From NCBI GenBank assembly GCA_018660685.1, contig JABJJW010000004.1, forward strand, positions 1 through 64,000: 64,000 bases of DNA, in the 5' to 3' direction. Position 1 is the first letter of the stretch. Each line of letters begins with the position of its first letter. The translations under genes and the position numbers were made by a program. Shown piece by piece: positions 36,666 through 39,468 of the stretch. The notes under the pieces were generated by a model. It saw nothing but the letters and a program-made list of their open reading frames with translations, had not been told where the DNA came from and did no database searches. Source of the stretch: Flavobacteriales bacterium. GTDB taxonomy: Bacteria; Bacteroidota; Bacteroidia; Flavobacteriales_G; Salibacteraceae.

Positions 36666-36727
36666 GCTTTTGCCATTGTGATCATGTGTCATTCAGGATT
36701 CACTACTTTGGTTCAAAATACATCCTT

Positions 36728-37132
36728 ATGAGTCGGATATTCTTCATTGCAATCGCGCTATCAATCTCATCAGCGGCGCTTGGCCAAACTCATGAGAATC
36801 TCGTCGACTTACAACCGAAAGATGATTATAAAAATATTCGCGTTCACAAATTGGACAGCGATTCACTGGCTTCCACTTTTTTAATCTGGGTTAAGAAAAG
36901 TGTAAAAGAGCATTTTCATGCCGAGCACACTGAGGTTGTGCAAGTTTTAGAAGGAGAGGGTGTGATGACACTCGGAGATGAGTCATTCAAAATTCGATCT
37001 GGCGATTACATCTTCATTCCGAAAGGAACTCCTCATTCTGTAGAAGTAAAACATGGATCAATCCTCAAAGCTCTGAGTATTCAGACACCGCTTTTTGATG
37101 GTTCGGATCGAATCTTCGTATCCAAGGAATAA
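36728..37132 (+). CDS. Secreted cupin-domain protein
   Basis: Protein of 134 residues with a signal peptide (MSRIFFIAIALSISSAALGQ). The rest is a single cupin barrel: metal-type motif 1 HFHAEHTEVVQVLEGEG (about 61-77) and motif 2 GDYIFIPKGTPHSVEV. The three His and Glu that bind the metal are present. Small secreted cupins may bind sugars or act as enzymes; function unknown. It is divergent from rocD. The ATG at 36728 gives a clean signal peptide; an upstream in-frame start would lie inside rocD. Confidence 0.85.
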   Translation: MSRIFFIAIALSISSAALGQTHENLVDLQPKDDYKNIRVHKLDSDSLASTFLIWVKKSVKEHFHAEHTEVVQVLEGEGVMTLGDESFKIRSGDYIFIPKGTPHSVEVKHGSILKALSIQTPLFDGSDRIFVSKE

Positions 37133-38075: not shown

Positions 38076-38090
38076 ACCAACCGGTCTATT
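38071..38090. terminator. Convergent hairpin over two stop codons
   Basis: Perfect palindrome AATAGACC-AACC-GGTCTATT. The THX stop (TAG) lies in the left arm and the minus-strand stop (TAG) of the CDO fusion gene in the right arm. No long T tract, so terminator strength is uncertain. Confidence 0.6.
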
Positions 38091-39468
38091 CAGCCTTTTC
38101 AGCTATAATGAAAATGGAACCTTCATCGGGTTGAGATAGAATCTCTCCAGGATGTTTGGTATATCCCACATGCGTGAGTGAGATGATTTTGAATCCGCTC
38201 TCATTTAGCAGTTCGGTAATCTCGTTTTCTGCGAAGTAATGCAGGTATGCAATTGATTTTCCGCCTGTTTTACGATAGAACACATCTCCCTTTTCGTAGC
38301 CCATGCGTTGAAGATCTAGTTGCTCATAGACACCAACAGCTCGCGGCCCCCATTCGAATCGGTCAATAACGTTGAATACGTCCAAATAGAGCCTACCTCC
38401 TACTTGGAGGCACTTTGAGATTTTGGTCAGGGACACCGCTCTTTCAGCTGCACTCGAAATGTGCCCAAAGGCATACAAGAAACTAACCGCATCCATACTT
38501 CTCTCCTCCACCTCGGCATTCAGCCAAGTTGAAGACTGGGTGCTTATGCCTCGCTTCTTCGCAATAGCACCCATCTCAGAAGAGATATCCACTCCAAAAA
38601 GATTGAAGTGCATGCCGCTCAGTGCTCGAATCTCCATGGCTCGCCTTCCTGTGCCGCAAGCGATTGCCAGATAATTGGCCATCTGCGTTTTGCTCAAATC
38701 ATCTGCTATGAGTCGATTGATTCTCGACGTGTATAAGCGTCTTGATTCATGATTGGTATCATAGTGGTCATAGTTCGCGGCCTGTTCTCTATAGTAGCTC
38801 GTAAGAAGCTCTGTGATTTCATCTGCTCCTGGTTTTGGAATCAGGGGATGAATGCGATGTGAGGGAGCGTCTTTTCGCTTTTCTAACGCCTCGTATTTAA
38901 AAGCCTTCTTCTTGATCTCTTTGAAGGACGTTCTAGGTTCAGACCATGACGCGGATTCCGCGGTATCATTCAATACGCCAATCGTCTCCGTGGATAGATC
39001 ATAAATTTCCATCCCATCAAAATCCGCGAGTGGAGGATAATAGAAATGAACCGTAATGGCCAGCTCATCCGTTGGGTTCTTCAACAAGTGAATCACGCCA
39101 TCACTTTCTTTGATCAAGGCCCCAGCCAATCCACATTCCATATTCGACTCGGTAACAACGCCATCCTGATGGGTAAATGTGACATTATCAAGGCGGCCTT
39201 CAGCAACTGCAACAACTCCCCAAAAGCCTTGGTGGAAATGAATGGCACTACTCGACCGAGCCGGCCAAGCCAAGACTACAACCTCGATAGGTTCGAGGCA
39301 CAGAATGTTTCGCGCATAATTGTGAGGATCCTTAACCTCGGGAATGTATTGCTGAAGATCAGCTTTCGTGAAATCGAATTCAAGCAGCGTTGTGAAAAGC
39401 GCTTCCAGATCGTAGGTCGAATAATCCTGTTGCTTCAGTAACTCTACGAGGGAATCAAAATCGTTCAT
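38086..39468 (-). CDS. Cysteine-dioxygenase-like cupin fused to a SAM-dependent methyltransferase
   Basis: Protein of 460 residues made of two domains. Residues about 1-170 resemble cysteine dioxygenase: iron-ligand candidates His77 and His79 in AIHFHQGFWGVVAVAEGRL, and His127 before LLKNPTDELAITVHFYYPP. CDO oxidises cysteine to its sulfinate. Residues about 215-460 are a class I methyltransferase with the SAM loop ACGTGR (270-275) and GVDISSEM. The fusion is not the usual bacterial form, in which the dioxygenase is alone. Substrate unknown; a small thiol is a natural guess. The start is the ATG at 39468; an in-frame upstream extension has no conserved residues. Divergent from YqgE and convergent with THX. 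Confidence 0.82.
   Translation of the reverse strand: MNDFDSLVELLKQQDYSTYDLEALFTTLLEFDFTKADLQQYIPEVKDPHNYARNILCLEPIEVVVLAWPARSSSAIHFHQGFWGVVAVAEGRLDNVTFTHQDGVVTESNMECGLAGALIKESDGVIHLLKNPTDELAITVHFYYPPLADFDGMEIYDLSTETIGVLNDTAESASWSEPRTSFKEIKKKAFKYEALEKRKDAPSHRIHPLIPKPGADEITELLTSYYREQAANYDHYDTNHESRRLYTSRINRLIADDLSKTQMANYLAIACGTGRRAMEIRALSGMHFNLFGVDISSEMGAIAKKRGISTQSSTWLNAEVEERSMDAVSFLYAFGHISSAAERAVSLTKISKCLQVGGRLYLDVFNVIDRFEWGPRAVGVYEQLDLQRMGYEKGDVFYRKTGGKSIAYLHYFAENEITELLNESGFKIISLTHVGYTKHPGEILSQPDEGSIFIIAEKAE

Follow-up and report, generated by a model that had tools for sequence, protein, structure and literature searches.

The window analysed here comprises 64,000 nucleotides of contig JABJJW010000004.1 from a Flavobacteriales bacterium (Salibacteraceae), and its minus strand carries a single uninterrupted frame of 460 codons (39468..38086) that reads from an ATG without a stop. 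The open reading frame list begins at a GTG (39582); homologues favour the ATG at 39468. The encoded protein has an N-terminal CDO_I cupin of the cysteine dioxygenase (CDO) type followed by a C-terminal class I SAM methyltransferase, the arrangement in one chain that a first-pass annotation of the sequence had proposed. Pfam CDO_I covers residues 47-149 (6e-7; 29.6 bits against a cut-off of 23), and Methyltransf_25, _23 and _11, each above its own cut-off, cover about residues 240-431 (best 7.8e-9). The candidate metal ligands (H77, H79 and H127) and the SAM loop named in the same annotation are likewise borne out, the loop reading ACGTGRR at residues 270-276. The features of the gene are listed below.

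38086..39468 (-): gene of the fusion protein (460 aa), from the ATG at 39468 to the stop at 38086-38088
38884..39468 (-): cupin half of CDO type, C-terminal extension included, aa 1-195 (Pfam, model, fold matches)
39310..39312 (-): R53, equivalent to the substrate contact Arg60 of mammalian CDO (alignments)
39232..39240 (-): H77-x-H79, predicted first two metal ligands (each in 42 of 42 fusions)
39088..39090 (-): H127, predicted third metal ligand (42 of 42)
39040..39054 (-): T139-x-H141-x-Y143, corresponding to the Ser-His-Tyr motif of thiol dioxygenases (conservation in 42 fusions)
38830..38898 (-): linker of about aa 191-213 with the invariant P211-K212-P213 at its end (PKP in 42 of 42)
38089..38829 (-): class I SAM methyltransferase half, aa 214-460 (Pfam, fold match to 2avn)
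38794..38796 (-): Y225, aligned with Tyr14 of the N,N-dimethyltransferase TylM1 (42 of 42)
38641..38661 (-): SAM-binding loop A270-C-G-T-G-R-R276, ACGTGRR (conservation in 42 fusions)
38461..38463 (-): H336, aligned with His123 of TylM1 (42 of 42)

A model of the full-length protein reaches a pTM of 0.62, at which the relative placement of the two halves is uncertain, and its pLDDT lies at 41-59 in the blocks of residues 161-200. The CDO half modelled alone (residues 1-204) has a mean pLDDT of 92.6 and a pTM of 0.87; residues 161-190 there score 93-96 and only the end drops.

Distribution of the fusion and conservation of its active sites

The fusion is present in 56 genomes of the Bacteroidota, namely 55 of the window's class and L037. 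G1019 carries it split over two contigs, and two of the carriers, G016 and G323, are single-contig genomes. A gene-calling artefact, named by the first-pass annotation as one way to refute it, and an assembly artefact are ruled out by the single frame and by this recurrence. The underlying genome draws for order, class and phylum are samples. The window's order yielded the full-length architecture in 7 of 42 genomes, the class draw in 7 of 395 (two of these already found), the order of G323 in 44 of 299 (one counted before, and G1019 split), the order of G286 in one of 12 (G286 itself) and the phylum draw in one of 395, the window's own genome, so the family is rare outside certain orders. A scan of named-genome contigs returned no match with the single protein as query; the alignment used as query gave seven loci, six in genomes already counted and L037 as the new one, all in Bacteroidota MAGs labelled Flavobacteriales, Crocinitomicaceae, Salibacteraceae, Cytophagales or Bacteroidia.

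The six other full-length homologues in the window's order are 40-48% identical to the window protein and have the same domain order, which is kept across the full-length homologues, the comparison that had been suggested as a check. An alignment of 42 distinct fusion sequences, the window's included, was used throughout (14 further fusion genomes lie outside it), and its 41 other members are 35-48% identical to the window protein. No free-standing close relative of the methyltransferase half was found in the class draw of 395 genomes, with few candidates scored per genome; the methyltransferase-only matches listed there (1e-10 or better) score no more than 52 bits, compared with at least 580 for fusions. 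As for spread on plasmids, tblastn with the fusion protein returned one record, matching the methyltransferase part only, and with a second fusion (see below) no record. A search of the open-licence literature found no described CDO-methyltransferase fusion.

Both catalytic sites are kept in nearly all aligned homologues. The three His residues together with Y51, W68 and Y143 are invariant, R53 is found in 41 of the 42 (Lys in G016) as is H141 (Asn in G064), and position 139 is Thr in 38 and Ser in four. On the methyltransferase side, G272, T273, G274 and R276 of the SAM loop are invariant, R275 occurs in 41, and the acidic residue after the second strand (position 294) is Asp in 40 and Glu in two. 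With the three His and the GTG of the loop present in every sequence, the loss of either site from most homologues, which would have told against the annotation, is excluded. In G006/G007, the closest pair used, dN is 0.068 against a dS of 0.276 in the CDO part and 0.059 against 0.427 in the methyltransferase part, and both halves are under purifying selection in this pair; dS is saturated in the other two pairs.

Relationships of the two halves

By sequence and by fold, the cupin is an Arg-type cysteine dioxygenase, nearer to the mammalian and Bacillus CDOs than to the dioxygenases of cysteamine, ergothioneine or 3-mercaptopropionate. Scored with a profile of 17 family members, the Bacillus subtilis CDO gives 6.5e-21, mammalian CDO1 no better than 5e-13, 3-mercaptopropionate dioxygenase 1.6e-5 and ergothioneine dioxygenase about 1e-3. 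The CDO-only model superimposes on rat CDO with Z 19.3 (rmsd 2.2, 164 residues), tied with B. subtilis CDO at Z 18.9 (rmsd 2.2, 151 residues); the thiol dioxygenases of Pseudomonas, Ralstonia and Azotobacter rank next (Z 16.6-17.0), then mercaptosuccinate dioxygenase (15.1), with ergothioneine dioxygenase (12.8-14.3) and ADO and plant PCO (12.2-12.8) last. The three-His site, the Arg60 equivalent, the Ser/Thr-His-Tyr motif and the CDO fold are all found, residue equivalences to mammalian CDO having been read from the alignments in the rat numbering. Arg-type and Gln-type thiol dioxygenases are distinguished in one paper, which names Arg60 and Tyr157 as substrate contacts in CDO and has cysteine bound through its amine and thiolate (PMC8050391). 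A Gln-type (3-mercaptopropionate) dioxygenase is ruled out here by the Arg (41) or Lys (one) at the Arg60 place of the 42 fusions. The Cys93-Tyr157 crosslink is lacking, as all 42 fusions have a Gly (Gly84) at the place of mammalian Cys93; this is no bar to membership, because bacterial CDO forms are described in that paper as using an unmodified Tyr (PMC8050391). Since the Arg-type site residues are kept and true CDOs are the closest folds, the simplest substrate would be cysteine or a similar alpha-aminothiol, and the first-pass idea of a divergent oxygenase acting on some other substrate has lost ground.

A rather doubtful variant holds that the true substrate is another alpha-aminothiol such as N-methylated cysteine, so that methylation would come first and the cupin would oxidise the methylated thiol, much as the two parts of OvoA work on one thiol. 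The CDO domain of this fusion type does form a clade of its own (100/100), set off by a long branch from the ordinary CDOs of the same class, and G286 (a fusion), G011 and G231 (solo forms that have no methyltransferase half) each carry an ordinary CDO besides the family member, so the two may have different jobs. The Arg-type CDO residues are nevertheless kept, even in the solo members.

The methyltransferase half matches 2avn with Z 23.6 (rmsd 2.9, 223 residues; VIA-align), a clear but unspecific fit, with dozens of entries within four Z units of 2avn, and it has the glycine-rich loop and the acidic residue after the second strand of class I SAM methyltransferases. With a profile of this half, the best solved relatives are the uncharacterised 1wzn and 3d2l, then TylM1 (3.8e-10); at lower rank are a UbiG-type O-methyltransferase and glycine sarcosine N-methyltransferase (1.6e-7 each), along with ToxA, phosphoethanolamine N-methyltransferase and NmbA (6e-7). 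All NCBIfam matches, UbiE at the top, fall far under their cut-offs. Most of the best named relatives act on nitrogen. Two TylM1 residues, Tyr14 and His123, the latter presumably with a role in that enzyme, align with the invariant Y225 and H336; by their titles, the TylM1 structure entries include Tyr14 and Ser120 mutants.

This mostly N-directed kinship bears on the suggestion that methylation falls on the sulfur of the sulfinate, an S- and not an N-methylation that would yield a methyl sulfone (3-methylsulfonylalanine). Sulfinates are good sulfur nucleophiles, and the fusion sets a methyltransferase beside a sulfinate maker, but the nearest named enzymes point the other way and no methyltransferase of this kind was found among the titles and abstract openings covered in the open-licence literature, which makes S-methylation quite improbable.

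Bacillithiol, or its N-methyl form, is a very improbable substrate of the fusion protein. In its favour, BshC was found in 18 of the 19 genomes that carry either a family member or the second fusion, and the bacillithiol N-methyltransferase NmbA is the distant relative of the methyltransferase half named above. The window's genome, however, has a separate NmbA-like gene (L138). In a tree of 31 NmbA-like proteins and other methyltransferases of the carrier genomes, where several joins lie on long branches, the fused halves form one clade (100/100) and the NmbA-like proteins another (100/99), the label "NmbA-like" resting on one member's match to 9ri2 (2e-29) and a common motif. The fused half as the genome's own bacillithiol methyltransferase is ruled out on these grounds. 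Moreover, the CDO pocket type suits small amino acids, and G005 (92% complete) yielded no BshC.

Gene neighbourhood and evolutionary history

In the window, the fusion gene has a lysine/alanine-rich gene on one side and a yqgE-like gene on the other, with no adjacent sulfur partner and no pdxH directly beside it. The first-pass statement that no pathway partner lies next door therefore holds for the window itself and fails for much of the family, as pdxH, a gene of PLP synthesis, is next downstream on the same strand in 25 of the 42 fusions. It is likewise found beside one of the five solo forms. Its estimated start lies -7 to +78 bases from the stop of the CDO gene, and the pdxH equivalog cut-off was passed in all six cases tested, five beside fusions and one beside the G011 solo form. 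No pdxH was seen in the control sets: none in 33 loci of other CDOs (32 distinct), none in 31 loci of a second set (29 distinct NmbA-like, one repeat and one second-fusion locus), none in 29 loci fetched with a methyltransferase family, and none in the five loci of the second fusion's group.

The count of 25 is inflated by shared descent, and the differing genes outside the pair are the stronger evidence. Among 26 loci, with the kinds of gene judged by eye and one contig ending at that point, pdxH is followed in seven by one glycosyltransferase-like family (Pfam gave no family in the one scanned), in 12 by an rRNA-methyltransferase-like family, and in the remainder by MsrB-like, TpiA-like or other genes. 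Mapped onto the tree of 42 fusions, the pdxH neighbour needs four changes and is present on both sides of the midpoint, so an ancestral fusion-pdxH pair, lost in some lineages including the window's, would fit. No link between pdxH and CDO was found in the open-licence literature; passages of PMC7181669 mention the two only as separate genes.

Other neighbours recur less often. A small Cupin_2 protein with a signal-peptide-like start (36698-37132, +) is encoded 1 kb beyond the end of the window's fusion gene, and since L034 has a homologue 4 kb away from its fusion, the block is partly syntenic. In the fusion loci L003, L005, L006 and L040 and in the solo locus L009, the CDO gene stands head-to-head with a gene for a miaE-like tRNA hydroxylase (identified as MiaE by Pfam in L003); it is absent beside the window's fusion, and a MiaE match of the same genome falls on another contig (G000:C22).

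Wider searches of the carrier genomes leave the taurine route through a PF00282 decarboxylase unsupported as a general partner. No PF00282 was found in four of 12 fusion genomes (G000, G022, G013 and G324, of which G022 is only 78% complete), so hypotaurine made by this route would not be a necessary intermediate, and none was seen beside fused genes among those with neighbours read. The expected hypotaurine gene pair, an ordinary CDO adjoining PF00282, does occur in G102 (L079:2021-3300).

Five family members, in G011, G017, G106, G231 and G257, consist of the CDO alone. They fall inside the fusions on the CDO tree, where three architecture changes are the minimum and keeping 13 fusions together, a group defined by architecture, is rejected (p-AU 0.0004). 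The G017 solo gene stops inside the linker (by eye), and its neighbour is the lptF-like gene that also flanks the G022 fusion. As the solo forms nest within fusions and one ends in the linker, the likeliest history is one old fusion followed by at least three losses of the methyltransferase half with the CDO half kept. Its persistence alone at three places of the tree argues that the halves are separable and that the CDO product is probably useful without the methyltransferase.

Such separability gives some room to an overflow valve, in which the CDO half would drain excess cysteine and the methyltransferase half would independently spend excess SAM on another small acceptor. In mammals, CDO and glycine N-methyltransferase are separate enzymes with comparable overflow roles. 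Cysteine traps PLP as a thiazolidine, and low cysteine would spare PLP, which would explain the pdxH neighbour of so many fusions. The resemblance of the methyltransferase half to glycine/sarcosine N-methyltransferases, among others, and the ability of the CDO half to stand alone also suit this scheme. It needs no fusion, however, and a fusion that arose twice favours a shared substrate or product; the overflow valve is possible, at rather low odds.

That second origin is seen in G179 (551 aa; L098:8555-10210) and G848 (543 aa; L145:7541-9172), which carry another CDO-methyltransferase fusion, 53% identical between the two, with about 150 residues between the domains. Since both trees place its CDO and methyltransferase domains in other clades, the pairing arose twice, separately. 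In G179 a Sulf_transp (YeeE-type) gene is found nearby, and the adjacent gene encodes a pyridine-nucleotide oxidoreductase. Relatives of this second fusion that are solo CDO-like genes (L099:5880-8800, L100:5876-8755 and L146:5790-8381) adjoin a gene for an amidohydrolase (Pfam Amidohydro_3 in L099, by eye in the others), with a GNAT acetyltransferase between them in two of the three loci, possibly an aminothiol release pathway. Elsewhere among the CDO family, 11 of 50 rows, forming one clade (96/91: L111, L083, L078, L091, L085, L086, L087, L084, L088, L090 and L096), have the second His ligand replaced by Tyr or Phe, and their metal sites are apparently altered.

A proposed reaction and comparison with known systems

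Our tentative preference, held with well under even confidence, is for a bifunctional enzyme that oxidises cysteine to cysteine sulfinate and N-methylates a small amino acid. Cysteine would bind a metal (iron) coordinated by H77, H79 and H127, R53 would pair with the cysteine carboxylate, Y143 and H141 would aid activation, and O2 would convert the thiol to the sulfinate. The C-terminal half would bind SAM at the ACGTGRR loop and methylate a small amine, the likeliest acceptor being the amino group of the freshly made cysteine sulfinate. Oxidation should precede methylation, because CDO binds cysteine through its free amine. One molecule would pass through both sites, and N- over S- or O-methylation is suggested by the fusion and by distant similarity. 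The acceptor itself is a guess, as UbiE tops the NCBIfam matches and the UbiG-type O-methyltransferase ties the glycine sarcosine enzyme. A PLP-dependent fate of the product, or a PLP-sparing role, might lie behind the pdxH link. Absence of the methyltransferase half from five members, at three places of the tree, argues against strict coupling.

In a bolder and improbable form, this bifunctional reading would have Bacteroidota making a hitherto undescribed N-methyl- to trimethyl-cysteine sulfinate, betaine-like, with one bifunctional enzyme, a PLP supply tied in through pdxH and a pairing invented twice. Work on thiol dioxygenases has mostly concerned single-domain enzymes whose job is to initiate sulfur catabolism or to sense oxygen. 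A fusion kept in dozens of species and with two separate origins suggests that sulfinylation and methylation serve one task, and its conservation points to an uncharacterised two-step sulfur reaction and a sulfur metabolite not described before.

Among known systems, mammalian CDO1 and B. subtilis YubC (PDB 4qm9 and 3eqe) share with the fusion protein the three His, Arg60, the Ser/Thr-His-Tyr motif, the equivalents of Tyr58 and Trp77 and the fold (Z about 19), whereas the fusion protein adds the methyltransferase, extends the CDO domain at its end by some 40 conserved residues, and has Gly in place of the crosslinking Cys93 of CDO1. The 3-mercaptopropionate dioxygenases share superfamily and fold (Z 16.7 to 6xb9) but have Gln where the fusion family has Arg. 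TylM1 and the glycine sarcosine N-methyltransferases have the SAM loop and fold in common with the second half, and TylM1 also the Tyr14 and His123 equivalents; identity to TylM1 is about 16-17% in structural alignment, and unlike TylM1 the fusion protein has a cupin attached. OvoA, in which a sulfoxide synthase and a methyltransferase form one protein, likewise joins iron-dependent sulfur oxygenation to SAM methylation, but its oxygenase differs: Pfam finds no OvoA-type oxygenase domain in the fusion protein, and the ovoA_Cterm profile scores 16.7 bits against a cut-off of 170. NmbA, whose type is common in Bacteroidota according to PMC12719100, is also a class I methyltransferase of the natural-product type, whereas the fused half belongs to a separate, well-supported clade, and the window's genome carries both genes.
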